Virus record (IMG/VR): IMGVR_UViG_3300028840_001943
Span: 1 to 31,463 of that record
Reading direction: 5' to 3' (one strand)
Origin: a virus
DNA: 31,463 nt
A model generated the notes under the pieces. The model was not told where the DNA came from. It searched no databases and saw only the letters and a program-made list of their open reading frames with translations. The translations under genes and the position numbers were made by a program. How positions within the stretch are numbered: position 1 is the stretch's first letter; every line of letters starts with the position of its first letter. Shown here piece by piece: positions 5,702-30,000 of this stretch.

Positions 5702-5724
5702 TTTCCTCTCCCGTGGAAATTAGT
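5702..5724 (-). promoter_or_regulatory. Shine-Dalgarno hairpin, copy 1
   Basis: On the minus strand the spacer between the fibre stop and the next start reads TTTCCACGGGAGAGGAAA. The arms TTTCC and GGAAA (six pairs here, ATTTCC/GGAAAT) enclose an 8-base loop with GGGAGA. The ribosome binding site is split between loop and 3' arm. An identical 23-base string sits at 15110-15132 before another gene, so this is probably a functional RNA element and not chance. Confidence 0.6.
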
Positions 5725-6529
5725 ACCTGATACACCAGCGACCGGTTACGTTTACCGGGCGTGACTCGCTGGAATTTTTATTTATCGCTGAAACTGATAA
5801 TCCGCTATTATCAAGCAACGCACTTCCGCTTTGCGCATATGCCTTCCCGAGACCTCCCCCACCTTGGTTGTCTATCATTTCAGCCGTGCCTGAGCCTGGG
5901 GTTATGTTGAAATTTTGGTAAAAACCATCTCCTGATGCCCCTACATAATAAATAGTATGCCTATGGTCGAAAACCGCCCAGTCCTGATTGTTGCCAATAT
6001 CCCTTGATGCTCCGTCTGGATCCACGGTTCCGCTTGTGTCCAATCCGCGGGCAAAAACTCCGCGCATGTCTGGTAGGACAAAATAAGGACCAGCAACATT
6101 CCTTATTGTACCAGGAGTATCACTGGTTTTGTAATACGCCGATGCTGTCGGATTGTCTGAATCTCCCACATAAGTTGACGCCACTAGTTCAGAATACGAT
6201 GCTATGGTTATCGTCTGCCCGTTCAACGGTAACAACCGAATGCCTAGAGAGCTTGGATCTGCATTGTCACCCATCCAGAACACAACCTCGCCAGGGTACC
6301 CTGCGATCCTACGAACGGCTTCGAGTCTTTGACTGGCCGCAGAAGACTCCGTAACCGCGTCAGGAGTCAACGAAGCTGCGTTCATCAGTGCCTGTGAAAA
6401 ACCCCAAAGATCATCGATTACAGACTTGATATATGGCGTTCCGTCAAGATTGCCAGGACCTGTTGAATTCAAACCAACTACGGCAGGAAAAGCCCCGGAA
6501 GTGTTTGCTATTGTTGCATAATCAATCAT
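5720..6529 (-). CDS. Tail fibre protein with collar domain
   Basis: A 269-residue receptor-binding fibre protein. Residues about 75-175 carry the phage tail collar pattern: GEVVFWMGDN, then LLPLNGQTI, and FVLPDMRGVFARGLD. These are followed by the DHRHT (HxH) motif and a Gly/Ser-rich stretch. It ends SESRPVNVTGRWCIRY, the usual C-terminal signature of these fibres (RPxNVxxxxCIRY). The N-terminal 70 residues should attach to the baseplate. It is short for a long fibre, so a short collar-type fibre or tip is likely. The start has AGGAG about eight bases upstream. It directly follows the gp48-like gene, as in Mu and P2. Confidence 0.85.
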   Translation of the reverse strand: MIDYATIANTSGAFPAVVGLNSTGPGNLDGTPYIKSVIDDLWGFSQALMNAASLTPDAVTESSAASQRLEAVRRIAGYPGEVVFWMGDNADPSSLGIRLLPLNGQTITIASYSELVASTYVGDSDNPTASAYYKTSDTPGTIRNVAGPYFVLPDMRGVFARGLDTSGTVDPDGASRDIGNNQDWAVFDHRHTIYYVGASGDGFYQNFNITPGSGTAEMIDNQGGGGLGKAYAQSGSALLDNSGLSVSAINKNSSESRPVNVTGRWCIRY

Positions 6530-6538
6530 TTTTTTCTC

Positions 6539-7756: not shown

Positions 7757-8954
7757 ATGCTATTCCCCCAGTTTCAAGCTTTGCCAGTTCGCCAGCGAAT
7801 AGTGTATACTGCGAAATGAACACGCCGACCTCTAAGCCAAACCCAACTCCATCGGCAGTGGCTCCATATGGCGACATTGCATCTTGAACAACCGTTGATA
7901 CACTGAGATCGGTTATTATGTCGTTTTTCTCAGATAGAGGATCCAGCCCCTCGATCCACATGAAAATTGCCCTGAAATACTCATCAAGTGACGTTTGAAT
8001 GTTTGTTTTTGCCGCGTCTTTCACTGTTGGATCCGCGCTGAAATTCCGGATCTCAACAAAAAACGGAACACGTGTAATCGACTCGACATACAAGCTGGAG
8101 TCAGTGGTTCCAAGCGCTGGGTTTGCTGTTCCATCCGTTTGGTTGTAATTGATATTGTCCCGTGCGGAATCAAGAACGGCCTGGCCAATGGTTCCAGTTG
8201 CCTCACCGTCGGGATTAATACTCGAATCCACCTCGATATACACAGTCCTGTCGCCCGGGATAGACGTTCCAGACGGCCGGCCAGAATACGGGAACGCACG
8301 AAAAACACCATCTCCTAACTCTGCCCATGTTCGATAATCAACCGCGTTGGATCCGCCTCCTACTGTTCTGGCTTCGTTTAACAGCCGACGCCGCCAGGCT
8401 TCGATCCCTTCCTGGTCTGTACCAAACGTATTCGGATCGCCCTGGACGGTTGCGGAATTCGTGGCTCCAGCGATCGGTGAATCCATGGTCATGGTGTCGC
8501 CGTCGTTGAGATTCCCTGCGGTTCCGACATCTTTGGCGGTGACTGTCATCAACGCACCGTCTCCAAGTGTCGGATCTGTGGCTGCTACCGTTGTCGAGTC
8601 GTTTGTATACCGGACGTTGTTCGAATCACCGACAAATTCTTTTCCGGCTGGAATCGATGTTCCAACAGTCGCCGGGAGAAATATAGTGTGATTCGTAGCC
8701 GTACCGGCTTTCCTTGGAACGTTATACTCGTTTCCAAAAACCGTCAACCCGGATTCACTGGCCGTTATTATCAGATTTTCCCTGGCCCGGTCTACCGCCA
8801 GACGAGAGAGCTCTGTTTGCGCTTGTGCCTCGTTGGCAGACTGGACACGTAAAAACGCCTTATCTACCAACGGAGATGTTTGATTCAACTCGGATTCGTA
8901 GTTTGACAGGTTCCGTTCGTAGTTTTCTTGTGTTGTCGGAATTCTGTAAGCCAT
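7749..8954 (-). CDS. Baseplate J-like protein (Mu gp47-like)
   Basis: A 401-residue baseplate wedge component of the gpJ/gp47 family. The N-terminal helical part (RIPTTQENYERNLSNYES) is followed by the conserved central signature. This includes the LxxxAxxxGL region, GTATNHTIFLPATVGTSIPAG, the ALMTVTAKDVGTAGN strand, and DQEGIEAWRRRLLNEARTVGGGSNAVDYRTW. The last segment is typical of the family. It builds the wedge ring around the hub with the gp46- and gp48-like neighbours. Length and order are as in Mu-type tails. The start has AAGGTG as ribosome binding site and is separated from the upstream gene by one base. Confidence 0.9.
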   Translation of the reverse strand: MAYRIPTTQENYERNLSNYESELNQTSPLVDKAFLRVQSANEAQAQTELSRLAVDRARENLIITASESGLTVFGNEYNVPRKAGTATNHTIFLPATVGTSIPAGKEFVGDSNNVRYTNDSTTVAATDPTLGDGALMTVTAKDVGTAGNLNDGDTMTMDSPIAGATNSATVQGDPNTFGTDQEGIEAWRRRLLNEARTVGGGSNAVDYRTWAELGDGVFRAFPYSGRPSGTSIPGDRTVYIEVDSSINPDGEATGTIGQAVLDSARDNINYNQTDGTANPALGTTDSSLYVESITRVPFFVEIRNFSADPTVKDAAKTNIQTSLDEYFRAIFMWIEGLDPLSEKNDIITDLSVSTVVQDAMSPYGATADGVGFGLEVGVFISQYTLFAGELAKLETGGIAYA

Positions 8955-15521: not shown

Positions 15522-17084
15522 CTAGCTCAAGAAAACGGCCAGGCTTGCATCAACCTGGAGAACGTTGTCAAAAATTCCGCCTTCTCCGGATACTACCAGC
15601 GGCAGGAACACGTTAAACCCATCCCCTCCGACTCTGATAGTAACCAGCGAAGGATCGGACTTTAGTTTGTCGATCGTGAAACTAGCACTATAAATCCATG
15701 CATGAGCCTCGAAAGACTCTGTGAGCTCCAGCAGGTCTCCCAGGACAGCCTTTCTGTCACGTGCTTTTTGACGGTCGATCGCGTTTGTAACCTTCGTAAC
15801 ATCCGCAACGATTATAATACCTTGCCAGCGCTCGTTTTCGAAATTCTGTCGAATGTTAAACAACTCGTTTTGCATAATCGAGATATTTCGTTGAGATTTC
15901 CAGTAATTCGAACTCTGTGCAACCCCTGCCGGATGATAGAACGTGTACACAAATTGCATCACAACCGCGTTGTTTTTCACTGCCGTTGGAGAGATTCCGG
16001 ACAACATAGCGCTGTTTCTGTTGTCATAATCGTCAGTCCAGCGATCGCCTGTCCCGTCTGTCATCCCAGGGATGATCCCCGGGATGACCTTCCCAACGTA
16101 AGTTTCAGCCGCCCTGTTTTGGTTCGTTTTTGCCATGACTCCCATGGCAGCCGCTGCGATTTCTGACGGATGATTAGGGGATCCAGGAACGCAAATGATT
16201 CCGTTTGTTCTGTCCAGCTTGTTTCCGTCTCCGATGGCTTTTACAGCCGTGAGACCTGCGGATCCAACCACCGTATCACCGTCGAGAACCCTAAACGGGC
16301 GTCCGATTGTCTTAGTGTACAACCCTACGAAATCGTTTCCGATTCCGTTATAAGTTGATAGTTTAGTGATCGTGCTGGAATCTTGCCCATAGGTATGAAC
16401 AACATCAGTGAAATTCGCTTCATTTGCAGCGTCACCGGTTCCGAGCCCGTCCAGGGCGTCATTGATATCCGGAACACCAGCGCCACCGGTCTGCTGTACG
16501 AATACGATCGCAACGCCAGCCGGGAGAGCTTGATTGAGTCCCAAATTCAACGACATATTTACCCCATCTCCGTATGTGGAAGTGTCTTTTGCCGTGGTAG
16601 TCACAACGCCCAACGCGGCCGATGCGGTGATCGGCAAATCGTCGTCCGCGTTAATCGCCGCGGCGATCGCAGTCGCGATTACAGAGTCAGTATCTGCATT
16701 GGCCACCGTCACTGTCACCAAATCGCCAGCCACATACAGGTAAATCGTTCCTGCTTCTGTCGCTGGTCCGGTTACCGTGATCGATCCAGCTGCCTGTGAG
16801 CCAGCAACCTCGGATTGTGGCTGTACCCAACATTCAATTCCACCGGAGCCAGCAAACGCCTTGATCGCCATTCGATGAACTGGGAACCCGAACCCAAATT
16901 TGTCTCCTGCGTCAGCAGGCGACAGTATCTGTACTGGAACCTCATCTACAACTCCGGTTTTCAGCGGATCGTAAGTTCCAATTATGAGAATTTTTCTCGG
17001 TACGTTTTCAGCGGTCGGCTGGAACGTAACATTTTCAGCGGTCGCCCCAACTGCCGGGGCGATCGAAGTAGCATCCAAAGGCAT
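15522..17084 (-). CDS. Contractile tail sheath protein (Mu gpL-like)
   Basis: A 520-residue sheath subunit, which makes this a contractile (myovirus-type) tail. N-terminal features are VPRKILIIGTYDP and LSPADAGDKFGFGFPVHRMA, as in Mu gpL (about 495 residues). The middle carries GTIYLYVAGDLVTVTV and ADTDSVIATAIAAAINAD, repeats common in these sheaths. The C-terminal part (RWQGIIIVADVTKVTNAIDR onward) forms the conserved core that interlocks with neighbouring subunits. GGAGG lies eight bases before the ATG, which shares a base with the upstream stop (TAATG). Confidence 0.92.
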   Translation of the reverse strand: MPLDATSIAPAVGATAENVTFQPTAENVPRKILIIGTYDPLKTGVVDEVPVQILSPADAGDKFGFGFPVHRMAIKAFAGSGGIECWVQPQSEVAGSQAAGSITVTGPATEAGTIYLYVAGDLVTVTVANADTDSVIATAIAAAINADDDLPITASAALGVVTTTAKDTSTYGDGVNMSLNLGLNQALPAGVAIVFVQQTGGAGVPDINDALDGLGTGDAANEANFTDVVHTYGQDSSTITKLSTYNGIGNDFVGLYTKTIGRPFRVLDGDTVVGSAGLTAVKAIGDGNKLDRTNGIICVPGSPNHPSEIAAAAMGVMAKTNQNRAAETYVGKVIPGIIPGMTDGTGDRWTDDYDNRNSAMLSGISPTAVKNNAVVMQFVYTFYHPAGVAQSSNYWKSQRNISIMQNELFNIRQNFENERWQGIIIVADVTKVTNAIDRQKARDRKAVLGDLLELTESFEAHAWIYSASFTIDKLKSDPSLVTIRVGGDGFNVFLPLVVSGEGGIFDNVLQVDASLAVFLS

Positions 17085-18263: not shown

Positions 18264-18568
18264 TTTTCAACGTCCTTGGCCTTTTTGAGGAACTTTTTGA
18301 GTTTCTTGACCTCTGCCTTGAGCTCTTCGTTCTCTTCGGTCAGTTTTTCAACCTCTGCTTTGAGCTCTTTGTTTGCAGCTCCGAGAGCCTCTAGTTTGGC
18401 GTCAAGGTGTTTTGATGGGTCATATTTCTCAGGGATAACCCCGATGTTTCCAGCCTTCTGCTCGCGCTCGAGCGTTTTCGAAGGAAGTTGATCCACCGGG
18501 AGTTTTTCCCCGTATTTGTAATACTTACCACCGATTTTAATGCTTCCGCTTCCTATCCATTGCATCAT
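18260..18568 (-). CDS. Small head-associated coiled-coil protein
   Basis: A 102-residue protein with a short N-terminal beta segment (GSGSIKIGGKYYKYGEKLPVD) and a strong C-terminal coiled coil with heptads of Leu/Glu/Lys (about 58-100). It lies directly after the capsid gene and overlaps it by four bases, the place of lambda FI, a packaging helper. The sequence does not prove that relationship. Two ATGs are adjacent; the first (18568) is used here, with GGGAG upstream. Confidence 0.6.
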   Translation of the reverse strand: MMQWIGSGSIKIGGKYYKYGEKLPVDQLPSKTLEREQKAGNIGVIPEKYDPSKHLDAKLEALGAANKELKAEVEKLTEENEELKAEVKKLKKFLKKAKDVEK

Positions 18569-19782
18569 GCAGCTCCCTTGTAGGTGACAAATGCGTCGGT
18601 TTGAGTTGTCGCGAAAATCGGGGCAGACTGCGTGCGCAGTGTTACCCGTTTCCAGTCATTCGATGCATACGCATCAAAATACAACATTCCAGCGTTCAGA
18701 GCATGCGCCTGTGCCTTGACCTTCGGAGGCATCGGCGGGGCAGACATGTTAAAACCAAACATTTGCTGGTAGAACTGTTGACGGAGAGGGATCATCGGAA
18801 GGTTTTCGGCCGGTCCGAAATACCGATCGCAACGTGCATCCGAAGCGCCAAACAAAACGTATCCGTCGGGCATCAGTTTTACAGCGGTTCCGGCTGCATT
18901 GTCGTAGATGTCAGAGTAGGTGAATTGCCAGAATTCATGCCCGCCTGGAGTCCGGAGCCGTCCGCGTGCGGTCATTCCAGCTTCTACGAGAAACCTGTAT
19001 TTCTCTGGAACCGGCAAACCCTGATTTACCAGGATCAACTCGAAGCGCCTGTTGTCGGCTTTTTCCACAACGTCAGCATGGGCCAGGAAAGCGGTGTATG
19101 CATCCTCTGCGTAAACCACATAATCCAGATTCGTCCGGCCGTTCGTTCGTCCGAGATACCAAGCGTCGTCATGATCTTTCAATGGATCAGAGCTTGCGTT
19201 CGTCCAGGCGAGTGCCAATGTGGAAATATGGGCCGCGTTCCGTCTCCAGTTGTACTGAAGATCCGGATCGGAAGTTCCGATGATCGCCGGCATTATTCCC
19301 TCAAGAACAGATTGCTGGGCCAGGTATTCCCAGGTTCGGATCGTCCTGCGGACGTGTTCCTTATGGATGATATTGGCGTGCTCGCGAAGCCTGGCCAATT
19401 TCTCCTTGTTCTGGTAGGGATTCTCACCAGCCATGCGATTTAGGATCACATTGCTGTCGATGTCGCCCTCTTCCTCGGAGAGTGGAAACGTCCTAGAAAA
19501 CGTAGAATACCGCTGCGACAGGGTATTTTTCTGGGTTGCTCCGAGCTTCCTCGAAACGGTTCCACGGGGTACCATGGCGGCGATCTTTTCGTTGGCTCGA
19601 ATGATATCAATGTCAACGTCCAGAGAGTTGGGGGAATACCGCGTCAGAGCTCCGGTTTCAGGCCGCCCAAAAATCGACAGCCACCCGGTGGGATTCCAGA
19701 TTTGATCTTTTTCATCGAACTTAGTCGCCATATAGCGACTGTATTGATCGACGGTGTTTGGAGTGGTCAAATAATCAGCCAT
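18565..19782 (-). CDS. Major capsid protein (lambda gpE-like)
   Basis: A 405-residue shell protein of the lambda gpE family, which adopts the HK97 fold. Typical features include the N-terminal YLTTPNTVDQYSRYMATKF region, the extended arm NEKIAAMVPRGTVSRKLG, and the C-terminal domain with RFLVEAGMTARGRLRTPGG, VKLMPDGYVLFGASDARCD and AQAHALNAGMLYFDAYAS. It is somewhat longer than lambda gpE (341). The neighbouring D-like decoration gene upstream supports the assignment. AGGAG precedes the ATG. Confidence 0.9.
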   Translation of the reverse strand: MADYLTTPNTVDQYSRYMATKFDEKDQIWNPTGWLSIFGRPETGALTRYSPNSLDVDIDIIRANEKIAAMVPRGTVSRKLGATQKNTLSQRYSTFSRTFPLSEEEGDIDSNVILNRMAGENPYQNKEKLARLREHANIIHKEHVRRTIRTWEYLAQQSVLEGIMPAIIGTSDPDLQYNWRRNAAHISTLALAWTNASSDPLKDHDDAWYLGRTNGRTNLDYVVYAEDAYTAFLAHADVVEKADNRRFELILVNQGLPVPEKYRFLVEAGMTARGRLRTPGGHEFWQFTYSDIYDNAAGTAVKLMPDGYVLFGASDARCDRYFGPAENLPMIPLRQQFYQQMFGFNMSAPPMPPKVKAQAHALNAGMLYFDAYASNDWKRVTLRTQSAPIFATTQTDAFVTYKGAA

Positions 19783-19791
19783 TGCTATCTC

Positions 19792-20229
19792 CTAGTTTTC
19801 GAATTCGTCAATCGACATGGAATCTTCCGGACACATACCGCGAGTATGCAGCCACTGACGAACTGTCAAGTTCAACGTGCTGATTACCGTGTCAAGGGTT
19901 TTTGAGTTTTCAATAACGAGTTGATTCTCGTCAAACGTGAACGTTCCACCGGTCAGGATCGGAACGTCGCTTACATCGCCGGCGACGATTTCGGCAGCGG
20001 AGAGCTCAGCAGTGATAATTCCCAATGGGAATTCCTGGCCGTTTGTCAAGGTTTCATCCGTGAATGGAACCCACTTCCTAGTCGCTGGAATCTGTGCCAT
20101 GAGGGTGTATTTTGCCAGAACAGTCGCCCTTCCGGCATCCTGTGCGACAACCTCAGCCTCCGAAACAAACGATTCTCCGCTTGTAACGAATGGATAATTG
20201 GTAATATTTGCGCTGGTCTGTACACCCAT
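19792..20229 (-). CDS. Head decoration protein (lambda gpD-like)
   Basis: A 145-residue protein of the head decoration family, which binds as trimers at the capsid threefold sites and stabilises the expanded shell. Visible pattern: a disordered N-terminus, QDAGRATVLAKYTLMAQ, LGIITAELSAAEIVAGDVSD and FTFDENQLVIE. Longer than lambda gpD (110) but within the family range. It lies between the protease/scaffold and the capsid protein, exactly as in lambda. Its start shares the junction base with the protease stop. Confidence 0.85.
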   Translation of the reverse strand: MGVQTSANITNYPFVTSGESFVSEAEVVAQDAGRATVLAKYTLMAQIPATRKWVPFTDETLTNGQEFPLGIITAELSAAEIVAGDVSDVPILTGGTFTFDENQLVIENSKTLDTVISTLNLTVRQWLHTRGMCPEDSMSIDEFEN

Positions 20230-20639
20230 TACGCACCTGCCTTTTCAGCCTCGATCAATGCGTCGAGATCTTCGTTGCTTTCGCAAACACCGGTTTCCAG
20301 AACGGTCGGTTCAACCTTCGGGGGAATAACCTCAGTTTTGGTCTCGCCGGCTTCTTCCTGGTCTTCATGTGCTTTCGCCTGGGTTTCCTCGGTGGCAGTC
20401 ATATCCATGACAACCGCCGCGCCTTCGAGCGCCTCGATCTTGGATTCGCCCTTTAGCACATTACATGCCAACGCGACGAATTTTGAATTTCCCATGTAAC
20501 CTTCGGTCTCGAGAAATCCAGCGATCTTCGTTGTCTTTCTGCCTTCGGTCTCGAGTGCAGCTTTTACCGCCTCGTCAACCTGCCCCTGAACCTCTGTTCT
20601 CAGTTCAGGATGTTTGGCGTAAATTTCGTCCAATTTCAT
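20229..20639 (-). CDS. Nested scaffold protein (lambda Nu3-like)
   Basis: An in-frame internal ATG (20639) inside the protease gene starts MKLDEIYAKHPELRTEVQ and gives a 136-residue acidic, helical protein. AAGGAT lies about nine bases upstream, and the start falls exactly at the end of the low-complexity linker, where the scaffold domain begins. The same gene-within-gene arrangement is established for lambda C/Nu3 and related phages. It would guide shell assembly and then be digested by the protease. Confidence 0.72.
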   Translation of the reverse strand: MKLDEIYAKHPELRTEVQGQVDEAVKAALETEGRKTTKIAGFLETEGYMGNSKFVALACNVLKGESKIEALEGAAVVMDMTATEETQAKAHEDQEEAGETKTEVIPPKVEPTVLETGVCESNEDLDALIEAEKAGA

Positions 20640-21506
20640 TATTTCATCCTTTTGTGATTGGCAATCACCGTTTGCCGGTTCAGTTGCCGATTGTACTCCG
20701 ACTCCCGAAGCACTCGCACTTTTACGTGTACATCGGGATTCTGTTTTTGTCAACGAATCTATTAATCCCACCGAAATCGCGTCCGGTTTTGATTTATCTG
20801 GATCTTCTGCTACCAGGACTCCGCCGCGTCCGAATTTCGTCCGGACTGTTTCCTCTGATACCCCACGGCCCTCCGCAACCCGAGAGATGAATATCCGCTC
20901 GAGTGCGTCAGCCCTGTCCTGGATTACCTTGCGGCCGGCTTTGGTGCTAGCGTCTGTATCTTTGTTCGGGGCGTTGCTTGAAACAACTTTGATTTTGTTT
21001 TTCGAGTCCATCTGTGTAATTATCACACCGATCGACCCGGTGGAAGCCGTGGGAGACGTTGCAACGATTTCGTCGGCCGCGCTGGCCAGCCAATACGCCG
21101 CGCTGGCCATGATGCCATGGTTTTCAGCGATCACTTTCTTTTTCGCGCTGAGATTCATCAGGGCGGTCCACGTCTCGTCTACACCTGCGATGTCCCCACC
21201 TGGGGAATTCACGATCAGCCGCACGGTTTCAATGTCTTCGTCTTCTGCCGCTTCATTCGCCGCCTGAATGATCGATCGGTACGACGTTCCGGCGATTCCC
21301 AAGAATTTCAGGAATCCAGACGGTCCGTTCATCGACAGGGGCCCGGCGATCTGAATCGTGGCGTTTCCGTTTGCGCCCACGCTGAGAACGTTCTCCGTGG
21401 ATTTGTCTCGCGCCTCCAGTTTTTCCAGATCTGGGATATCGTGGATCGACATCTGATCCGCCAGGGATTCGAAAAATGCTTGTTCCATTGCGAGGATTGT
21501 GTTCAT
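20229..21506 (-). CDS. Prohead protease (S49/SppA family, lambda gpC-like)
   Basis: A 425-residue head maturation protease. The S49 core spans about 45-250: TIQIAGPLSMNGPSG, TVRLIVNSPGGDIAG and the nucleophile motif GIMASAAYWLAS with Ser135, followed by STGSIGVI. The general-base Lys probably lies in the 170-195 region but cannot be fixed by eye. A Ser/Gly-rich linker (about 255-285) leads to a C-terminal acidic, helical scaffold region. It should cut scaffold and capsid proteins after prohead assembly. The C-terminal 136 residues can also be made separately from an internal start at 20639. Confidence 0.88.
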   Translation of the reverse strand: MNTILAMEQAFFESLADQMSIHDIPDLEKLEARDKSTENVLSVGANGNATIQIAGPLSMNGPSGFLKFLGIAGTSYRSIIQAANEAAEDEDIETVRLIVNSPGGDIAGVDETWTALMNLSAKKKVIAENHGIMASAAYWLASAADEIVATSPTASTGSIGVIITQMDSKNKIKVVSSNAPNKDTDASTKAGRKVIQDRADALERIFISRVAEGRGVSEETVRTKFGRGGVLVAEDPDKSKPDAISVGLIDSLTKTESRCTRKSASASGVGVQSATEPANGDCQSQKDEIMKLDEIYAKHPELRTEVQGQVDEAVKAALETEGRKTTKIAGFLETEGYMGNSKFVALACNVLKGESKIEALEGAAVVMDMTATEETQAKAHEDQEEAGETKTEVIPPKVEPTVLETGVCESNEDLDALIEAEKAGA

Positions 21507-22846
21507 TAAATCACTCCCTGGTATTTCACGATCGAGCAGTCGCCGTTTTTGGCTGCGTATGCTACTTTGTCGCCGGCGCCGAGGTCGAGGACTAAGTATT
21601 TTGATTCGGTGTGGGTGTTATCTGTGACTGGGTTTGTGCCGGATCCTCCAGATACATCAACTAATAAATCATTTAGATATACCGTAAATTCGCCATCACT
21701 GGATCTGGTAGCTTTAAATTTATTCCAATCACCTAAATTTACAAACGCTGTCGGGGTGAAAAACAGCGAGGATAATGTGACTCCGTTGACTTCTATAAGT
21801 TGAACTCGACGGCTTCCAGATATTGTGAGACTGTAACCATTGGAACCGGCGTCCGCTATCACAGTTGGTGCGCTGTCGATGAATATAGAATGAGTATCCC
21901 TTGAGTTGGTCGCTTTGTTTATCCACCATTCAAACGTCCCATAAGCCGCCTGGGTATCATTCCCATGGAAATACGCCGTCGGAACGTGGCACACCCCGGC
22001 CGTCACACACTCAATCACCTTCGCACTGCAACCGTTGATAGTATCGTTTGAAATATGAAACGAACCGGACTCAACGCGAAAGGGGGAGTTTGACAGTTCC
22101 CCGGATGTGTCTGGTGTGACTGTCTCGGTCACGCCGTAGTCAGTCTTGAAATTTATCGCGCTCGCACCGGCATTGTATTCGGCTTCGATTTCGGCTTGGG
22201 TTAGGGCTCGGTTGAATATTTTGACGTTTGATATGTTGCACGGGGTCGCACTAGTCCCCCCTGTTCGGGATCCCAAGTGTAGATTACCAGCAAAACTACT
22301 CCACGGGTTAGACGCAGAAGTTCCGGAGCCTACAAGTTCACTGTCGATATATAGTTTGTTTTCAAGTGAGTCCAGTTGCGCAACCACAAAGTGTGCCATG
22401 TCTGTTTTGACTTCTGTACTATACAGAACAGCACCGGCATCGTCTATATCATCATAGATCTGTATCCCTGCATACCCGGCGGCTCCCACAACTGCACGTA
22501 ATCCCCATGCATTATTTGTGCCAAAATAATAATTAAAAAACCATTCGGATGCTGACATCGTGCGCGGCCATATCCACATGCAGACACTAACATCCGTTAG
22601 TGATTGGAACCCAGCCCCGCAATCTATATTATCATCAACCCCATCGAACTTCATCGACGGCCCGATCTCGGTGAACTCAAATCCCGGGCCGTTTATCGTC
22701 CCGTGGTTCCCATTCCCGCTGAGATCTTCAATAGTCCCGTCGGCTCGTGGTACCATATTGTACCCGGCGACTAGGCCGGATTGGCTGCAATCGATTCCGA
22801 GTTGACCCATGTTCCGGCCCCATGTTTTGCTTGGCCATATTGTCAT
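21506..22846 (-). CDS. Two-domain LamG/concanavalin-like lectin-fold protein
   Basis: A 446-residue protein with two predicted concanavalin-like beta sandwiches. The first (about 26-225) has the LamG_3 pattern: GLVAGYNM, DLSGNGNHGT, MKFDGVDDNIDCG, VCMWIWPRTM, then HFVVAQLDSLENKLYIDSEL and FNRALTQAEIEAEYNAG. The second (about 240-446) has GTFEWWINKATNSRD and DWNKFKATRSSDGEFTVYLN. Such folds bind sugars or other surfaces. It lies between portal and protease, so it may be a head-surface or head-fibre protein and not a tail adhesin (inference). The preceding gene carries a related single domain. No signal peptide. Confidence 0.75.
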   Translation of the reverse strand: MTIWPSKTWGRNMGQLGIDCSQSGLVAGYNMVPRADGTIEDLSGNGNHGTINGPGFEFTEIGPSMKFDGVDDNIDCGAGFQSLTDVSVCMWIWPRTMSASEWFFNYYFGTNNAWGLRAVVGAAGYAGIQIYDDIDDAGAVLYSTEVKTDMAHFVVAQLDSLENKLYIDSELVGSGTSASNPWSSFAGNLHLGSRTGGTSATPCNISNVKIFNRALTQAEIEAEYNAGASAINFKTDYGVTETVTPDTSGELSNSPFRVESGSFHISNDTINGCSAKVIECVTAGVCHVPTAYFHGNDTQAAYGTFEWWINKATNSRDTHSIFIDSAPTVIADAGSNGYSLTISGSRRVQLIEVNGVTLSSLFFTPTAFVNLGDWNKFKATRSSDGEFTVYLNDLLVDVSGGSGTNPVTDNTHTESKYLVLDLGAGDKVAYAAKNGDCSIVKYQGVI

Positions 22847-23475
22847 CGTGATAAATCCTTGTAAACTTGGTAGTGTTCTTCGGCCGTGAGGGCTCGGCTG
22901 GTTGCTAGGACGGCGCCGATTGTGGTTGGTATTTGACGGAACCCACCGGACGTATGTCCTATGTAAACCGTCCTCGACGTAGCAACGCCCGCAGGTACTA
23001 CGGTGGCCCCCGGTTCGGCTTTCACGGCATCATAGAAAAAATCCGGCGCGCCCCCAGGAATCCAAGAAACACCCAAATATTTTTTACCCCGAAACGGGTC
23101 GGCATTAAATGAAGTAGAAGACCCTACTTGAAAATACGCCCGTTTATCGGTGCACATTAAATTAACGCCCCCAGTGGCGCCCGCTGATGTGAAAGGATAA
23201 TTTATGCCGGCGGGATTTTCAAAAAACGAATCGGAAAAAAAAACTATGATACTAGCGGACGCACCACTTAAATCCAAACTAACATCCGCCGCCACGGCCA
23301 GCCGCCCAGTCAAATTCAACCGCATCCCCGCGCCGTTCAATTCGGTCGGCGCAGTCGGGATCCCATCATTCCCATTCCCAGACCAGTCCAGGAACGTGCC
23401 GCTCCGATAGTCGTGATACAGCACGACCACGCCTTCGTTTATTAATCGTTGGATCGCTCCTGAAATGCAAGTCAT
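22843..23475 (-). CDS. Single LamG-like domain structural protein
   Basis: A 210-residue protein that looks like a divergent paralogue of the first domain in the following gene. Shared marks are VVVLYHDYRSG, DWSGNGNDGI against DLSGNGNHGT, and the closing ATSRALTAEEHYQVYKDL against FNRALTQAEIEAEYNAG. It has one concanavalin-like sandwich and no catalytic signature. The start and stop overlap both neighbours by four bases. It is probably a virion surface protein of the accessory cassette. A tandem duplication origin is likely. Confidence 0.65.
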   Translation of the reverse strand: MTCISGAIQRLINEGVVVLYHDYRSGTFLDWSGNGNDGIPTAPTELNGAGMRLNLTGRLAVAADVSLDLSGASASIIVFFSDSFFENPAGINYPFTSAGATGGVNLMCTDKRAYFQVGSSTSFNADPFRGKKYLGVSWIPGGAPDFFYDAVKAEPGATVVPAGVATSRTVYIGHTSGGFRQIPTTIGAVLATSRALTAEEHYQVYKDLSR

Positions 23476-24281
23476 GCGTTTCGCTCTTTTCCTATTTCAG
23501 TTAACGTAAACGTTGTCTCAATGGAAACCGATGTGTCATTCGTGTCCATGGATATTCTCGGGATGAAATCTGCCCTTGGGCTGAGTGTTGCTTTGTTCGT
23601 CTTGATCTCATACTCAATGCTGGTGCCATCTGAGGATATGGACCCAGTATCCACAACTTGGGGGTGTAAACCATAGGGTCTCACATATACCTCTAGCGCA
23701 GCTTTCGCGGCAATCTTCGTATCCAGTGAGAATCTAATAGTATCCACACTAGCCGTATATCCTGCCGGGCATGTCCAAAAAGATTGCAGTGTGCGATTGT
23801 ATCCATTCTGGATAAACGTTTTTGTGTCGCTCGGAGTAGTTGGCACGCCACCTGATACAGCCGCGGTATCTGCATAGAAATGAATATTTCCCGCAAACCC
23901 GTTGCCAATTATCGGGCTAGTCACAGGATCCATATTGTACGCCGTAAAGCATCTCCAGAGGGAATTGCCAATGTCCACGGGTGTCTGCCCGGTAAGGGTA
24001 AATGTGTCCTCGACCCAGTTTCCGTCTATGTCGAGTCCGAAATATTTCACTAGTTGAGTGTCACCGACCACGCTTGAACTGGCACGGTTTATTGGCGCCG
24101 TCCCATCCAGTGGGTACACATAGTTTACGTTTCCTAGGTCATCAGACCCATACTGCCAAACATCATGAAAGGCAGCGTCAGAGTCGGCCCGAACCTTTCC
24201 GAATTTCGTCCACTCCCAGGTACCGTCTACGAGACCGCGGCGGACGCGCTCCCTGTAAGGTAGTTGTATGTAAGATTTCAT
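23472..24281 (-). CDS. Beta-rich structural protein, unknown (269 aa)
   Basis: A 269-residue protein with alternating polar/hydrophobic beta segments and many Thr, Ser, Asp and Gly. Recognisable landmarks are RVRRGLVDGTWEWTKFG near the N-terminus and SIEYEIKTNKATLSPRADFI near the C-terminus. No domain is recognised. It overlaps the flanking genes by four bases each and belongs to the block between portal and protease. A virion surface or decoration role is inferred from composition and context. Confidence 0.6.
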   Translation of the reverse strand: MKSYIQLPYRERVRRGLVDGTWEWTKFGKVRADSDAAFHDVWQYGSDDLGNVNYVYPLDGTAPINRASSSVVGDTQLVKYFGLDIDGNWVEDTFTLTGQTPVDIGNSLWRCFTAYNMDPVTSPIIGNGFAGNIHFYADTAAVSGGVPTTPSDTKTFIQNGYNRTLQSFWTCPAGYTASVDTIRFSLDTKIAAKAALEVYVRPYGLHPQVVDTGSISSDGTSIEYEIKTNKATLSPRADFIPRISMDTNDTSVSIETTFTLTEIGKERNA

Positions 24282-24835
24282 GTCGCGAACTCCAGAGTCG
24301 ATCCGTTGACAAACGCCACTCGGAAATTAATCAGCATCGTAAAGTCAAGTGTCGTGTTTGTGGTTAAGTGTAATCTAATGTAATTATCAACGCCGGGCTT
24401 TGCAACGAGCGAGAAGGGGCGTCCTAAAACATCATCGTCTCTATTCTCGTAGACTCGAGCCTGGTCAGCGGCTATGGTTGAGAATACTTCAGTACATATC
24501 TGATCTTTGAACAGCACCGTGTTCACAACACACCCAGACAGGTCGGCTCCGTCGGCTGTCAGTATATCCGAGTTGGTGCCGTCCCAGACATCCGCATAAA
24601 CGTTTGTACAATTCGTCAGCGCTGGAGCGTCTGTGATCGCGGCCCATTGGTTAATAATGGTTATGATCCCAGTGTATTTAAAAATGTTGATTGTCTTGCT
24701 TTCGTTGTTGGCTGTGACGTGAATCGATTTTGCAAGTCTGTGGCCCCACGTTTGAAGACATGCATCTCCGAATACATTCTGTGTCATGTATCTACAATCA
24801 ACTGGTGTTCGTAATGTCAAGGGCGGTAACTTCAT
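24278..24835 (-). CDS. Beta-rich structural protein, unknown (185 aa)
   Basis: A 185-residue protein starting MKLPPLTLRTPVDCRYMTQN. It contains several cysteines (14, 26, 80, 101, 113) and a Thr/Asn-rich C-terminal half with VDNYIRLHLTTNTTLDFTM. No catalytic or binding motif is seen. The stop overlaps the next start by four bases; the upstream gap is only 20 bases. Co-translated with the lectin-fold genes, it is likely another virion accessory protein. Confidence 0.6.
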   Translation of the reverse strand: MKLPPLTLRTPVDCRYMTQNVFGDACLQTWGHRLAKSIHVTANNESKTINIFKYTGIITIINQWAAITDAPALTNCTNVYADVWDGTNSDILTADGADLSGCVVNTVLFKDQICTEVFSTIAADQARVYENRDDDVLGRPFSLVAKPGVDNYIRLHLTTNTTLDFTMLINFRVAFVNGSTLEFAT

Positions 24836-24855
24836 CCTTTTCCCCCAATCAGTTT

Positions 24856-25350
24856 TTATATTGGTGTCCTGTGCAGCATCAATTCATTCGTGTTCGTCGT
24901 GTCATTCACGGCCAGTTTGAACCTGAAAAACATATTGTTCGTGTCGTCGAATTGCCAATTGAACAAAGTGCCTGGGGTTGTAGCGGACGATATGCTCCCA
25001 ACCGCCGTGCCAGTTACAGTTTCGACACCAACGGTAACCGGGATCCACGTGCCGTTTTCATGATTCCGCATTTCGCAGGTGAGAACGTTCGCGGTCCCGC
25101 CGCCGTCGACCAGCGCGCCGCTCAACGACATTGACTTAAACCCGAGCATACTTAGGCCGTCAGCGCTTGGAAAATACGTATCCGCAGTGAGATTCGCCGC
25201 AGGGGAGATGTCCTCTGGTACCTGCCCGAACCGTGCAGGATCGGTTTCAGTAACATTCAACGATCCAGTGGTAGAATTTACAGATCCACCCAATGCGCCG
25301 ACGGATCCGCCGTTTCCAATTATCTGCTTGCTTATTCGTGTTGCGCTCAC
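24856..25350 (-). CDS. Beta-rich structural protein, unknown (164 aa)
   Basis: A 164-residue Gly/Thr/Ser-rich protein with segments such as GNGGSVGALGGSVNSTTGS and GSISSATTPGTLFNWQFDD. It resembles phage surface or trimeric proteins by composition only. The GTG at 25350 is preferred over one at 25356, because AGAGG lies seven bases before it and it overlaps the preceding stop by four bases (GTGA). It continues the accessory cassette downstream of the portal. Confidence 0.55.
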   Translation of the reverse strand: MSATRISKQIIGNGGSVGALGGSVNSTTGSLNVTETDPARFGQVPEDISPAANLTADTYFPSADGLSMLGFKSMSLSGALVDGGGTANVLTCEMRNHENGTWIPVTVGVETVTGTAVGSISSATTPGTLFNWQFDDTNNMFFRFKLAVNDTTNTNELMLHRTPI

Positions 25351-25610
25351 AGCCACACCTCTACTTCCCCATCGTTTTCAGTCGGATATACGTACACATC
25401 AACTGATGAACTATGATCGATCTCGATCTCTGGCCCGGAAAATGAAACTCCGTCGTCTCGAACTGTCGGAGCCGCTCCGCCTGTCTCGCGGTATGTCCAG
25501 AGGTACATTCGCGGTGAATTGTCAGTTATCACAATGTTGCCGTAATTTACAGCGGTTGCGATTTTTGTCCACGTGTCTTTGGTGCACGCCACCGGGAGAG
25601 GATTCGCCAT
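25347..25610 (-). CDS. Small beta protein after the portal (87 aa), unknown
   Basis: An 87-residue protein, ANPLPVACTKDTWTKIATA through DVYVYPTENDGEVEVWL. The pattern of short beta strands and a DTWTKIATA start resembles small phage head proteins that carry a sandwich-like fold, but no family is certain. Its ATG shares a base with the portal stop (TAATG), so it is translationally coupled to the portal. Confidence 0.6.
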   Translation of the reverse strand: MANPLPVACTKDTWTKIATAVNYGNIVITDNSPRMYLWTYRETGGAAPTVRDDGVSFSGPEIEIDHSSSVDVYVYPTENDGEVEVWL

Positions 25611-27295
25611 TATTTATCATCCTTATCGTTGCCCCGATCGTCATCAGGGTTCTTTTCTTCGCCTTCGCCACCGTCCTGTATCGCCTGTTTTCCAAATGGA
25701 GACTGTGGCAACATTTCGTATTCTTTTGTCAGGGCGGCCATGTTTGCCTTGGCTTCGGAGCCGTTCAACTCGCGGGCTACCCTGTTTATCGTCGTCGCGC
25801 CCATTTCGAGATATTCTTTGTCGGCCTTCGCGGTCCGCATCGGATCAATATTCGGCATTGCATCGCCGATCCAATTATTTTTTAACCACGCCTGGCGTAA
25901 TCTTGGGTTGCTCCACCCTGGAGCTCTCACGCGTCCGGCGGCGATCTCGCCTTCCAAATACGCCTCATACGACGGATCCAAATAATCAGTCGCCAGCTCT
26001 TCGCGCTCCATTTCCACAATTCGCCAGTACATAACCAACAACGCACGGGAAGCCGAATAACTCTGGCCGAATTTCATCAACAAAACTTCGCCTGGCATTC
26101 CCATCGACGCGGACAGATGAGACACAAACGCCTCGGTAAAGTCACGATATGAATCCACCGGAGACGACTGGTTCAATACCTTGAGATCTTCGCCACCCTG
26201 GAGATTCCACACACCGACGGCCCCGGGAGTCATCATAGTGGTCTCATTCATCGGATGATATGACAACTGTTCGACGGATCCGTCTGATCCTGGGGTCGGA
26301 GCTATGCTCGCATCACGCGGGCCGGCAGGGGCGCCTGTCTGTATATCAAACGGATTCGCCGCTGGATCTTCTTTGTTCGGCTTGACGTACATCGAAATGG
26401 ACGCCTGGATCGCCGCCTGTTTAATATGCGCCGTCGTAAAATCGGTGTGTTGCTCGAATTCCTGGATCGCGTGACTCAGATCAGAATATCCACGGCCCTG
26501 GCCTGCATACTCCGACTGATATGAATGGATCATCTGTGTCAGCCCGGATCTTGGCCCACGGGTCGGGACGGTTACCGCAACATATGCCTTTTTCTCTTTG
26601 TCGTATTGGTATATCTTGTATGCGATCTCGCGGCCTGATTTGTCGCGCTCGATACCATCGTATTCGTTAACCGGGAACCCGTAGGTGTTTGTAAACGCCG
26701 CGCCTCTGATCTGGCTCGGATCGATGAATTGCAGTTGCAACGGATTCAGTAGATCGCTGCGGCGACTCCGATAGAATCTCGTGAAAAACTCTCCGTCCCG
26801 CTTTTTCTGGATCATCGCAAGTTTCTGTTGCTGATAGAAATTATCCGTCTCGCTACGAATGGATTTTTTCGACTTCGCCCAGCAATGGAATCCGGCAGAT
26901 ACTTTTCTGCTCCATTCCTCCGCCTGCTCTGGCGTAATCCCCAAAACATCGAAATCAGGCGTCGGTTCGACTTTCAAGCCCTTGCCTACCACCGTTTGAG
27001 CCCATCTGGTGACAACGCCGTGAGCAGCTACACTGTCATGATATGCCGATCTTGCGTTTTGCCTGAGATATTGGTGATCCAAAACCGGCGATTGCCCTGT
27101 GCTGGCAAGCCCCTGGAACCATTTTGACCCGTCGGATCCGGTCCCGCCATAGGGAATCGTCCCATATCCGCCACCGCCATACCCGAAAAAACCACCTGGT
27201 TGATCGTATGTCGGGCCGATATTATCACCGACGATATCATCCTCGGAGACAGTTTGGCCCTTCCAAAACATTAATTTGTCTAGAAAACTCCCCAT
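25610..27295 (-). CDS. Portal protein (lambda gpB family)
   Basis: A 561-residue portal of the lambda family, forming the dodecameric ring through which DNA enters the head. Typical features are ARSAYHDSVAAHGVVTRWAQ, GLKVEPTPDF, DGEFFTRFYRSR, LQLQFIDPSQIRG, VNEYDGIERDKSGREIAYKI, HSYQSEYAGQGRGYSDLSHA and the C-terminal GEVLLMKFGQSYSASRALL. Length is close to lambda gpB (533). The frame is open up to 27361. The ATG at 27295 is chosen: it forms TAATG with the previous stop, has GGGAGA upstream, and avoids a 66-base overlap. Confidence 0.9.
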   Translation of the reverse strand: MGSFLDKLMFWKGQTVSEDDIVGDNIGPTYDQPGGFFGYGGGGYGTIPYGGTGSDGSKWFQGLASTGQSPVLDHQYLRQNARSAYHDSVAAHGVVTRWAQTVVGKGLKVEPTPDFDVLGITPEQAEEWSRKVSAGFHCWAKSKKSIRSETDNFYQQQKLAMIQKKRDGEFFTRFYRSRRSDLLNPLQLQFIDPSQIRGAAFTNTYGFPVNEYDGIERDKSGREIAYKIYQYDKEKKAYVAVTVPTRGPRSGLTQMIHSYQSEYAGQGRGYSDLSHAIQEFEQHTDFTTAHIKQAAIQASISMYVKPNKEDPAANPFDIQTGAPAGPRDASIAPTPGSDGSVEQLSYHPMNETTMMTPGAVGVWNLQGGEDLKVLNQSSPVDSYRDFTEAFVSHLSASMGMPGEVLLMKFGQSYSASRALLVMYWRIVEMEREELATDYLDPSYEAYLEGEIAAGRVRAPGWSNPRLRQAWLKNNWIGDAMPNIDPMRTAKADKEYLEMGATTINRVARELNGSEAKANMAALTKEYEMLPQSPFGKQAIQDGGEGEEKNPDDDRGNDKDDK

Positions 27296-27597
27296 TAATA
27301 TCGCCGTCTCCCGTAAAATCCGTATTTCCTGCGGATCGTCATATTCGAAACTCCGCCACAATTCAGCTTCCGGTAAAGGAGGTTAATTTCCGCCTCTAAT
27401 TCTCCAATCAACTCCCTGTATTCTTTGAGCTTTCTAAATTTAGCCTGCTGAGATCCTTCATTGGAATCAAACTTGTACGACTCTTTAGTTTTAGGAATCA
27501 ACGATAACAGCGCATCATTTGCGGCGTCTAGAAGTTCTTTTTTTGTTTCGATTTCCGCTAAGATTAACGCACGTTGTTCCGCTGATAGACAAGCCAT
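27295..27597 (-). CDS. Small head-tail connector-like protein (DUF6148/gpW-like)
   Basis: A 100-residue protein: an N-terminal helical hairpin (ACLSAEQRALILAEIETKKE), a central SYKFDSNEGSQQAKFRKLKE, then LIGELEAEINLLYRKLNCGG and a basic tail. This fits the small phage DUF6148-type proteins that precede the portal gene, comparable in position to lambda gpW. It likely aids completion of the head or neck. GGAGG precedes the ATG. A strong promoter lies just upstream. Confidence 0.6.
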   Translation of the reverse strand: MACLSAEQRALILAEIETKKELLDAANDALLSLIPKTKESYKFDSNEGSQQAKFRKLKEYRELIGELEAEINLLYRKLNCGGVSNMTIRRKYGFYGRRRY

Positions 27598-27645: not shown

Positions 27646-28034
27646 CACGGGGGATTATTCGGCCGGGTTTTGAGTATAGATAAATTTAGAAGATCTGTAT
27701 TTCTTCTAATATACCCATCGATGATCATTTTTAAAGCGTTAGGGCTTTGAACACTGAAATGAACTGTTTCATCGCATCCATTGTTATACATGGGTTTATT
27801 CCTTTCGTACTGCACATTTAATATTCCAGAGTGATACCATTTTCTCAAAGTGCTTACAGCCTCTGGTATCCTTGCGCCTGGCATGCCTATCCTTGTATCT
27901 ATCATACATTCATCGCGCAAAACAGATCTAATATCTTCCTGTAATATCTTCATTAAATCGACTTCTGATATGCTTTCATTTTTAAGACTTGACAATCTGT
28001 TCGCTATTAAAAAATCTAATTCAACTCGCATCAT
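27642..28034 (-). CDS. Unknown AT-rich gene between terminase and portal (130 aa)
   Basis: A 130-residue protein of mixed helix and strand. The segment IPEAVSTLRKWYHSGILNVQYE has the look of a winged-helix recognition helix and wing, but this is weak. Its DNA is visibly AT-richer than the terminase and portal genes, a sign of separate origin. It overlaps the terminase large subunit by 14 bases and is followed by an independent promoter, so it may be a late insertion in the operon. No family recognised. Confidence 0.6.
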   Translation of the reverse strand: MMRVELDFLIANRLSSLKNESISEVDLMKILQEDIRSVLRDECMIDTRIGMPGARIPEAVSTLRKWYHSGILNVQYERNKPMYNNGCDETVHFSVQSPNALKMIIDGYIRRNTDLLNLSILKTRPNNPPC

Positions 28035-30000
28035 TCCCCATCTTCCTGGCGGTCTGCCGCTCCATATACGCCAGAACGCTCACATGGTTTATGTTCTCGA
28101 GCTCCACCGGGCTGGCACCTCGGTGTCGGGCCCAGGCTTTTGCGTCTTTCACCTTGGCATCAAGGTACACATCACACGCCGCGAGATTGTACACCCGACA
28201 GTCAAGCGCTTCGTTCGCCCGTCCTCGCGCGTGAAAACTTCCGTCTCGTAATTTCTCCTCCGCCGTGAGCATATCGAAGTATTTCGACGTGTAATCTTTT
28301 GGGAACGCGCAGAATCCAGGCCGCTGCGGCCCTTCGTCGGCTTTCTCGATTTTCAGATTGTTGTAAATATGGTTTTTGTAATAATTCGTAGAGATCGTGT
28401 ACAGCGTGACATCCTCCGACATCGCGGACGCCCTGTATCGTTTGAAATTCCCGGGATCGATCTCATCGCCCTTCTCTTTTTTGTTCTTTTTCAGCGCCTG
28501 GAACCCCTTCGAGGGATAAGTGTTCACCCAACCCTCGCAGAATCGGTATACCACGTCTGTCTTCTGTCCCTGGCCAGAGTCGACGAATATCAACACCGGG
28601 GAGAACTCCATACCGTCGGATCGTCGGAACGTCAGTTTCCCGGATCTCTGGAGTTCGGTCAGGGAGGCCCATGCTCCGTCGCTTGGATCGTCTACATCGC
28701 CCAAGACCGTTTGATACGTGATACTCCAGGTTCGGAATTTCGACCCGTGGCCGCATATCTCGAACTCCAGCCGGGGCGGTTTGTTAGGGTCGGTTTTCGA
28801 TCCCTCCTGTACGTCGATCGCCATGGTCAAAAACAAAACACCGTCGGGAACTGTACCCTCGGAATACCCAGATCGGAGCTCGATTACCTTTTCGACTTTC
28901 GGCCGGCCGCCGATCTCCTTGTATGGTTTTCCAAGCGCCAGGTTTACCCAGGATCGCATTCCGTCGGGAGTCTCGCGGGCCTCCAGATATTCTTGGACCA
29001 TGTCGTGCCAACTGTACATACCGACCGGAGAATACAGCGACGAAATATGATAGCTTCGATACACCCGGGAGTACGATTCCGCCGTGGGCTCCCATCGACC
29101 TTGTTTCAAAAATGTCGTCTTGTGATGATTTCGAAATATGTCGTGGCAATGGTCACAGACATAATAGACCTCTGCCAGGCGCCCGGCTTTGGTTTCGTAA
29201 TGCAATCCGTGTTGACGCTGGGATGTACCAAAAACTAATTCCTGGAATTTTCCGCAAATCGGACACGGAACAAGAAATTTTCTCTGATCTCCGAGTTCAT
29301 ACTGTTCCTGGATCGGAGATTCGCCGTCGATCTGGGGGGTTGACAGATCCATTACTTTTTTCCGCTGTCCGAATGCCTTTGTTCTTGCTAGTGATACCTT
29401 AATCCAGCTCCCTTCCCCGCTTGTCAGCAATTTGGGGGCACCGTCGATCTCATCCCTGATTAGAACCCGCTTGGAATCGGATCTCATACTCGCCGGCGAC
29501 TGCGCGGAACTCATGTCTAGAGCTCCGCCCGGGAACTCTTTGGAAAACATTGTATCCCCGGACCGTTTGTTTTTTCCAATTTTCAGTGTTTGAGCCTCGA
29601 TTTTGATGCCACAAGACTCGATCAGCGGTTCGAGCCGCTTACCAACCCATTTCCTCAGCAATGGCTCTGTAGCCGACATATACAGGATCTCCGCCGGGTT
29701 TTCATCCATCCAATATGCAATTATGTTTTCAGCGGCCGCGCTAGCGCCGATCTGCGCAGCCTTCATAATCGCCTGATGTTGCACGTAACTAGCCGGGCTC
29801 ATGTTATCCATGATTTCTACAAGGTATGGTGTGCGATCGTTCCGCCAGAATCCAGGAAACGGAGTATTTAGTGGCAACAGTCGTTTCCGTGCGATATACT
29901 CCGAGATCAGTGGTTCGGGCTGTTTTGTGGGCTTCAGATCGTTCAGCTCGATGAAGAAATCAAGATCGGAATTCAGATACTGTTCGGAGACTGTTAGCAT
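28021..30000 (-). CDS. terL: Terminase large subunit (lambda GpA-like)
   Basis: A 659-residue packaging motor of the GpA family (lambda gpA 641). The ATPase has a lambda-type deviant Walker A, KAAQIGAS, with the lysine at residue 80 ahead of the loop, and Walker B RVLIRDEIDG (178-187). Cysteines 246, 249, 282 and 285 form a Zn knuckle (CPICG and CDHC). The C-terminal nuclease has acidic residues in TMAIDVQEG (Asp396) and VLIFVDSGQGQ. It cuts concatemers and pumps DNA into the prohead. GpA relatives usually cut at specific cos sites, so cos-type ends are likely but no cos site is proven. No clear ribosome binding site is seen at the ATG. Confidence 0.93.
   Translation of the reverse strand: MLTVSEQYLNSDLDFFIELNDLKPTKQPEPLISEYIARKRLLPLNTPFPGFWRNDRTPYLVEIMDNMSPASYVQHQAIMKAAQIGASAAAENIIAYWMDENPAEILYMSATEPLLRKWVGKRLEPLIESCGIKIEAQTLKIGKNKRSGDTMFSKEFPGGALDMSSAQSPASMRSDSKRVLIRDEIDGAPKLLTSGEGSWIKVSLARTKAFGQRKKVMDLSTPQIDGESPIQEQYELGDQRKFLVPCPICGKFQELVFGTSQRQHGLHYETKAGRLAEVYYVCDHCHDIFRNHHKTTFLKQGRWEPTAESYSRVYRSYHISSLYSPVGMYSWHDMVQEYLEARETPDGMRSWVNLALGKPYKEIGGRPKVEKVIELRSGYSEGTVPDGVLFLTMAIDVQEGSKTDPNKPPRLEFEICGHGSKFRTWSITYQTVLGDVDDPSDGAWASLTELQRSGKLTFRRSDGMEFSPVLIFVDSGQGQKTDVVYRFCEGWVNTYPSKGFQALKKNKKEKGDEIDPGNFKRYRASAMSEDVTLYTISTNYYKNHIYNNLKIEKADEGPQRPGFCAFPKDYTSKYFDMLTAEEKLRDGSFHARGRANEALDCRVYNLAACDVYLDAKVKDAKAWARHRGASPVELENINHVSVLAYMERQTARKMGNDAS

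Follow-up and report, generated by a model that had tools for sequence, protein, structure and literature searches.

Why would a phage whose head genes otherwise follow the lambda-type order keep its portal and prohead protease genes several kilobases apart? The question is raised by the window analyzed here, i.e., the whole 31,463-nucleotide (nt) stretch of the uncultured virus record IMGVR_UViG_3300028840_001943 (IMG/VR), which is recognizable as a contractile-tailed phage by its terminase, portal, protease, capsid, sheath, tape measure, baseplate and fibre genes. Its head module shows the lambda-type succession of portal (PF05136), protease (PF01343) and major capsid protein (MCP, PF03864), the first two of which, however, are separated by 4103 nt, whereas the corresponding gap is −47 to +16 nt in the six named phages of cultured hosts for which profiles detected both genes (L004–L009). 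Six minus-strand genes, P1 to P6 herein, fill the interval (21506–25610), just as a preliminary description of the sequence had stated. That description, which took them for a lectin-type array on the head surface, did not contain the two elements found to be constant: P1, a conserved protein predicted to be a small jelly-roll, and a short N-terminal peptide, [IV]G[NP], on the product of the gene after P1. Both are new here, and no paper on a portal–protease lectin cassette or on this peptide was found in a literature search judged by titles and the beginnings of abstracts. In the reading we prefer, to which we would assign a probability of about one half, P1 would anchor exchangeable adhesins, probably on the head or neck, with the peptide serving as their docking plug.

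The variable slot, P1 and the N-terminal peptide

Relatives were collected by scanning viral contigs with terminase, sheath and portal alignments, which gave 4, 19 and 80 loci, respectively, partly on the same contig, while a portal scan of cellular genomes contributed four contigs of metagenome-assembled genomes (MAGs); all loci were mapped with profiles grown from the window proteins. After the removal of duplicate contigs, four near-duplicates and the reference phages, 60 loci (window included, and with a few close relatives, e.g., L094 and L097, still among them) have both portal and protease. The nearest neighbours, L116 (with a gene annotated as hypothetical before the protease) and L117 (portal–protease distance of 57 nt), were left out of the counts. 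The interval, ranging from −50 to 6678 nt (median 1959), is filled with genes in 54 of the 60 loci and has P1 in 37, and 127 of the 217 slot proteins (stand-alone P1 excluded) have no relative in another slot at a phmmer E of 1e-4. The comparison that the preliminary description had proposed thus shows the portal–protease interval to be a highly variable slot in the lineage of the window. A second variable interval, from the terminase to the small gene before the portal, reaches 5142 nt (L011, L041, L088, L107).

P1 is the element of this slot that stays. Its relatives, mostly of 85–105 amino acids (aa), were found in 60 loci when duplicate contigs are counted, and their usual place in the lineage of the window is directly behind the portal gene. 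An AlphaFold2 model built from 6 sequences (pLDDT 88.4) suggests a small jelly-roll, the best viral fold matches of which are unnamed small phage proteins (TM 0.73, E 3.9e-4 and 6.3e-4). Among solved structures, Foldseek gave no match under an E of 0.001 and a sequence profile none under 0.65, and the best VIA-align Z of 7.3 (PirA) falls inside the range that the tool terms unspecific. No significant relative was obtained from 50,697 phage records by tblastn with three different P1 queries (best E 0.3). The P1 profile matched none of 395 genomes of one phylum, an empty answer that is uninformative without a known positive, and one of 132 genomes of another, this being a MAG already in the locus set. 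On one contig (L038 10660–11760, the contig of L014), a longer protein is fused to P1, with a signal-peptide-like N-terminus ahead of it.

The peptide was noticed during clustering, when otherwise unrelated slot proteins were seen to begin with MIGNG, MIGPG and the like. In its strict form, [IV]G[NP]G within the first 45 residues, it occurs in 20 of the 217 slot proteins (18 loci), and in none of the 280 open reading frames (ORFs) behind the capsid gene, the 63 between terminase and portal, or the 162 behind the sheath. The position next to P1 is where the motif concentrates. In a first set, which left out 11 P1 rows without an ORF within 60 nt as well as the fused P1 of L103 and L038, [IV]G[NP] lies within the first 25 residues of 27 of 42 next genes versus 4 of 343 control ORFs, and a loose form (S, D and G allowed) in 34 versus 29, the controls being mechanical ORF tilings that include some non-genes; the longest-ORF starts were taken as start codons. 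A second set, obtained by searching viral contigs with P1 alone (55 loci, 16 of them already collected and 39 new), has the motif in 27 of 38 next genes and the loose form in 28; the 11 genes without [IV]G[NP] comprise five proteases, two second copies of P1, one with the loose form only and three others. Once eight rows with the protease (that of L010 recognized by eye) or P1 as the next gene had been dropped, the combined figures are 54 of 72 for [IV]G[NP] and 62 of 72 for the loose form, against means of 6.2 and 16.9 (maxima 14 and 28) in 1000 rounds of composition shuffling. Further into the same proteins the motif fades: 5 of 72 at residues 26–50, 0 of 70 at 51–75 and 1 of 69 at 76–100. 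Some next genes are shared between loci and were counted repeatedly (L122/L123 and L140/L141/L162 in the second set, L094 and L097 in the first), and related sequences entering more than once make the Fisher P values too small, so the safer figure is that 25 of the 30 body families into which the 72 next genes fall have at least one [IV]G[NP] member.

Two trivial origins of this peptide (henceforth the tag) were considered and rejected. An artefact of ATGA gene overlaps would favour Ile or another A-codon at residue 2 only, whereas Gly and Asn/Pro follow here; 22 of 34 tags begin at residue 5 or later, and the four-codon strings, with the variable fourth residue counted in, are 33 different ones in 34. 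An ordinary low-complexity N-terminus is likewise at odds with the shuffles, which yield the 6.2 of 72 given above where 54 were observed. Several cassettes (L054, L083, L105, L123) have two or three loose-form proteins each. The gene after P1 in L139 has the peptide three times within its first 60 residues (SLIGPG, ALIGPD, SLIGPG), and an IIGNG string, probably there by chance, also lies inside the P4 of the window, away from the N-terminus.

The tag goes with P1. Among the 37 slots bearing P1, 25 encode a protein whose first 25 residues include [IV]G[NP]; among the 17 without P1, none does, although P1 may be missed where a contig begins inside the region (e.g., L016). The argument from individual families rests on three beta-protein families that span loci with and without P1: most of their relatives beside P1 have the peptide, whereas the four members from P1-less loci (two in L092, one each in L087 and L003) do not. 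Relatives of P4 were seen in L061, L083, L087, L105 and L003, and those adjoining P1 (L083, L105 and, from an inner start, L061) are tagged, while in the window P4 is untagged and P2 has the tag instead. The remaining families that span both kinds of locus are of the lysis or membrane type or consist of small BppU-like proteins; they mostly lack the peptide whether or not P1 is present, and the three loose-motif cases among them, including one from the P1-less L098, are chance occurrences. In L103, P1 and a tagged-type protein form one polypeptide, with VGNG placed after the last strand of P1; in L130 and L160, tagged genes precede P1.

The pair is not bound to one portal family or to one place. 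In the second set, a portal of the window's family lies directly upstream of P1 in 20 of the 34 loci with enough upstream DNA, whereas in L126, L128 and L146, P1 and its tagged gene stand between the terminase and a portal of another family (Phage_portal_3, E about 1e-98). In L144 (72.7 kb), the genes flanking the pair were taken for terminase and portal by eye. In L168 (3325–4860), the order is terminase, P1, tagged gene, P1, tagged gene, two small genes and portal, i.e., tandem pairs.

What the slots hold

The preliminary description had counted three LamG domains in two genes. One of these is firm: P6 is a Laminin_G_3 (PF13385) member by the Pfam gathering cut-off (67.8 bits for the whole protein versus 27.6, best stretch at residues 82–220; 54.8 bits for the N-terminal half alone), a membership that gives a fold family and is silent on place in the virion or ligand. 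A second domain in P6 is not supported, as the C-terminal half taken alone has no LamG match at E up to 1 and an hhalign probability of 2.5%, even though the whole-protein scan counts a second stretch; no relative of P6 was found by phmmer among the sequences of solved structures. P5 may be a LamG protein, having no Pfam LamG match and a weak hhalign match to 11 LamG rows (probability 53%, P 1.4e-4, 84 columns in the right order). A tblastn search of the phage collection with P2 gave no match up to an E of 1, and P3 yielded neither a family above the cut-off (Pfam, PHROGs) nor a tblastn match in phages. P4 was modelled with low confidence (pLDDT 60.5), its C-terminal domain being possibly jelly-roll or galactose-binding-like; among its many unspecific structure matches are XepA (Z 8.7), the podophage tail proteins of SU10 and Pa223 (about 8) and CBM61 (7.6), while its profile found nothing among solved sequences. 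Pfam recognized no Ig family in P1–P6 at E up to 1, though profile searches may miss Ig folds.

Across the relatives, a lectin-type array holds only to the extent that the interval carries adhesin-type proteins, LamG being just one of many types of body. A LamG profile built from P6 picks out six of the 60 slots (the window, L016, L042 with two proteins, L060, L080 and L109), as well as the gene just upstream of the portal in L014/L038, a LamG protein after a decoration-like gene in the distant phage L002, and a gene in L170, a locus of the later P1 set. A Pfam scan of the 181 slot proteins of at least 90 aa (88 + 93) found Laminin_G_3 in seven (5 of 88 and 2 of 93), next to amidase, M15, M23, lysozyme and GH19 enzymes, peptidase C39, holin, BppU_N, sialidase-N and DUF2793; weak matches under the cut-off are BclA_C in L015 and a beta-helix in L054.

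Some of these bodies have counterparts among known virion proteins. In L042, which has two LamG proteins, one matches phrog_8510 (virion structural protein, 9.1e-32), and a LamG protein bearing the tag is also found in that locus. The slot protein of L052, a locus with neither P1 nor tag, matches phrog_1645 (1e-46), which represents a structural protein of T4-like cyanophage virions; the match covers most of the slot protein (residues 14–442 of 443), and 139 records have a match. Two slot proteins of relatives match PHROGs of the class “head and packaging, virion structural protein”. The P4 relative of L003, a spring-water myovirus record, lies between the terminase and the next head gene.

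Others look as though they act on the cell. Endolysin-type families occupy several slots (M15_4 in L016, Amidase_3 in L018, M15_2 in L026, lysozyme in L030, and further members), and 52 of the 186 slot proteins not adjoining P1 have a hydrophobic N-terminus, as would suit a generic cargo or moron site whose proteins serve lysis, particle release, cell-surface lectins or exclusion and not the virion. A hydrophobic N-terminus is, however, found in one of 34 tagged genes after P1 and in none of P1–P6, and the link between P1 and the peptide is unlike random cargo, which makes this explanation an improbable one for the cassette. By eye, some of the endolysin-type slots (L016, L018/L089, L026, L030/L075) also have holin-like or lipoprotein-like genes. 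Homing-endonuclease motifs (NUMOD3 in two slot proteins, GIY-YIG in one) could be a means of exchange.

Where the cassette proteins might sit

Under the reading preferred here, the portal–protease interval would be an exchangeable display cassette. P1 would be a constant virion adaptor whose likeliest place is the capsid or the portal/neck vertex, and the product of the next gene (P2 in the window) would dock on it through its N-terminal [IV]G[NP](G), the body behind the peptide being swapped between phages. The untagged P3–P6, the LamG protein P6 among them, would either join the same assembly or represent extra cargo. With such an array, the particle might first attach reversibly to polysaccharide of the host or the environment, final binding being left to the baseplate and fibre genes (5720–8954). 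The computation itself shows the slot and its variability, the conservation and predicted fold of P1, the peptide and its linkage to P1, and the occurrence of the pair next to a second portal family; docking, virion place and ligand are inferred. That P1 and [IV]G[NP](G) form a general plug-and-socket on the head or neck, in which unrelated adhesins are swapped across portal and tail types, is a wider proposal that we make tentatively and would regard as somewhat doubtful.

The head or neck, where these putative virion proteins would sit, is favoured because their genes keep beside the portal, protease or terminase in different backbones and because P1 is also present in records in which no sheath was detected, in line with the preference of the preliminary description for the head over the tail. 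The sheath was found in 8 of the 14 tested records (window included) and not detected with phrog_165 in L126, L128, L144, L146, L154 and L168. Of these six, a tape measure was matched in L146 and L168 but not in L126, L128, L144 and L154, three of the latter four being fragments of 10–16 kb. An earlier sheath search with PF04984 (0 of 15 records) is uninformative, as records later positive for phrog_165 were among its negatives, and PF12236 matched no record searched. If the absences hold, P1 serves contractile and long non-contractile tails, and perhaps short ones too; differing tail types, if real, would leave the head and portal vertex as the common ground.

The proteins might instead be tail-side adhesins encoded out of place, i.e., receptor-binding proteins or side fibres docking on the neck, collar or baseplate. 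Fibre-like slot bodies speak for this (a GP4 fibre I match, PF23140 at 4.2e-41; DUF2793; BppU_N; and a 654-aa protein of L028 that is fibre-like by eye and has no Pfam match), as does the resemblance of the low-confidence P4 domain to the SU10 and Pa223 tail proteins. We consider it unlikely, given that the window already has its own fibre-type gene at the tail end, that the strict tag is absent from the post-sheath ORFs, and that P1 occurs in the records with no detected sheath. Internal proteins of T4 carry a capsid targeting sequence. Here, too, unrelated proteins share a short peptide at the N-terminus and are encoded next to a prohead protease, so that the peptide could direct them into the prohead, where the protease would trim them before their ejection into the host; the peptide, however, goes with P1, the bodies identified are of adhesin or fibre types, and the pair of the Phage_portal_3 records is located between terminase and portal, which makes this the least probable of the explanations considered.

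Several observations weigh against the display cassette with P1 as its anchor. P3–P6 of the window, including its LamG protein, are untagged, and the PDB matches of P1 are weak and generic. The signal-peptide-like N-terminus ahead of P1 on the L014/L038 contig is a misfit with cytoplasmic assembly. The protease directly follows P1 in six loci (L010 by eye, L130, L151, L152, L155, L164), so P1 also occurs with no tagged gene following, and the best link to a known virion protein, that of L052, comes from a P1-less slot. Lysis enzymes, holin-like proteins and homing-endonuclease motifs show that unrelated cargo is also taken up at the site. The records assessed for tail type, by means of two profiles, may be fragments, the relatedness and partial redundancy of the sequences make the P values too small, and the virion location of these exact proteins is something that we infer from sequences and models.

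Receptor-binding proteins that keep their N-terminal anchor while the bodies are swapped are familiar from tail genes with anchor domains. The proposed cassette resembles them in combining a constant anchor with an exchangeable adhesive body, and differs in the core peptide of 3–4 residues, in the predicted jelly-roll partner encoded by a separate gene and in its place in the head module, between portal and protease and outside the tail module in which N-terminal-anchor tail fibres belong. To our knowledge, head- or neck-mounted adhesins are known in few phages. The contractile Agrobacterium phage 7-7-1 is reported to have flexible adhesive head fibres, one per vertex and with proteins still unknown, which make the first host contact before the tail binds (PMC12796354); this likeness to the proposed cassette (a contractile phage with adhesive head-mounted proteins) makes such a role plausible, though it provides no link at the sequence level. 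T4 Hoc, which sits on the head, and the Ig-like/BACON adhesins of gut phages are modular carbohydrate- or mucus-binding accessory proteins (PMC13370021); there the domains are Ig-like and Hoc has a capsid-binding domain of its own, whereas the bodies here are LamG and others, with a separate small adaptor and a short N-terminal peptide. If the proposal were true, a constant socket with a short plug on dozens of unrelated bodies would explain the swapping of surface proteins among environmental phages, adhesins could be recognized in metagenomes just from their N-terminus and the adjoining gene, and laboratories would have a small peptide tag with which to display proteins on harmless phages.

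Gene map of the window and minor observations

Table 1. Head and tail features of the window, with the cassette between portal and protease (window coordinates).
Feature	Position	Strand	Support
Terminase large subunit	28021..30000	−	phrog_15 1.5e-162
Portal protein, lambda family	25610..27361	−	PF05136 E 2.2e-60; phrog_21 4.9e-69
P1, 87 aa, conserved small predicted jelly-roll, first cassette gene, proposed anchor	25347..25610	−	
P2, 166 aa, GTG start, tagged protein directly after P1	24856..25356	−	N-terminus VAVSATRISKQIIGNGG
IGNG codons in P2 (residues 13–16), proposed docking plug	25309..25320	−	sequence and motif statistics
P3, 185 aa, no assigned family	24278..24835	−	
P4, 269 aa, phrog_8198 relative	23472..24281	−	phrog_8198 E 1.9e-6
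P5, 210 aa, weak LamG candidate	22843..23475	−	hhalign 53%, P 1.4e-4
P6, 446 aa, LamG domain at residues 82–220	21506..22846	−	Laminin_G_3 67.8 bits
S49-type prohead protease	20229..21506	−	PF01343 5e-17; phrog_53 (head maturation protease) 2.4e-55
Small gene between protease and capsid gene	19792..20229	−	position and conservation
Major capsid protein E (cap_E)	18565..19782	−	PF03864 2.6e-16
Tail sheath (contractile tail)	15522..17084	−	phrog_165 4e-62
Fibre-type gene, tail end of the window	5720–6529		

The small gene behind the protease has no family match of its own (Pfam, PHROGs) and occupies the place where relatives have a head decoration gene. The cassette genes are close-packed, with junctions of −1 nt (portal/P1), −10 (P1/P2), +20 (P2/P3), −4 (P3/P4, P4/P5 and P5/P6) and −1 (P6/protease), so that the 4-base overlaps, given as the prevailing type in the preliminary description, make up three of the seven. 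Overall, the observations and the interpretation of that description were each borne out in part. The Gly + Thr content of the cassette proteins is 17–25%, with the maximum in P2. Promoter-like sites (15 versus 10.7 in shuffles, standard deviation 3.3) and terminator-like sites (8 versus 8.7) are both near chance. An insertion at the level of DNA alone was considered and rejected: G+C is 49.6% in the cassette and 49.1% in the window, a composition that shows no trace of recently acquired foreign DNA.

Proteins of about 100–120 aa that look BppU_N-like by eye recur at the protease end of several slots or close to it (L068 10854–11189, L089 8160–8495, L094, L097, L033, L054, L080 and L096). In L002 (5284–7314), protease- and capsid-type sequences share one 676-aa frame, again by eye, and the L034 record (G012:C1:30303-33275, minus strand) has two consecutive sheath matches in a single 1050-aa frame, i.e., a duplicated or fused sheath protein.

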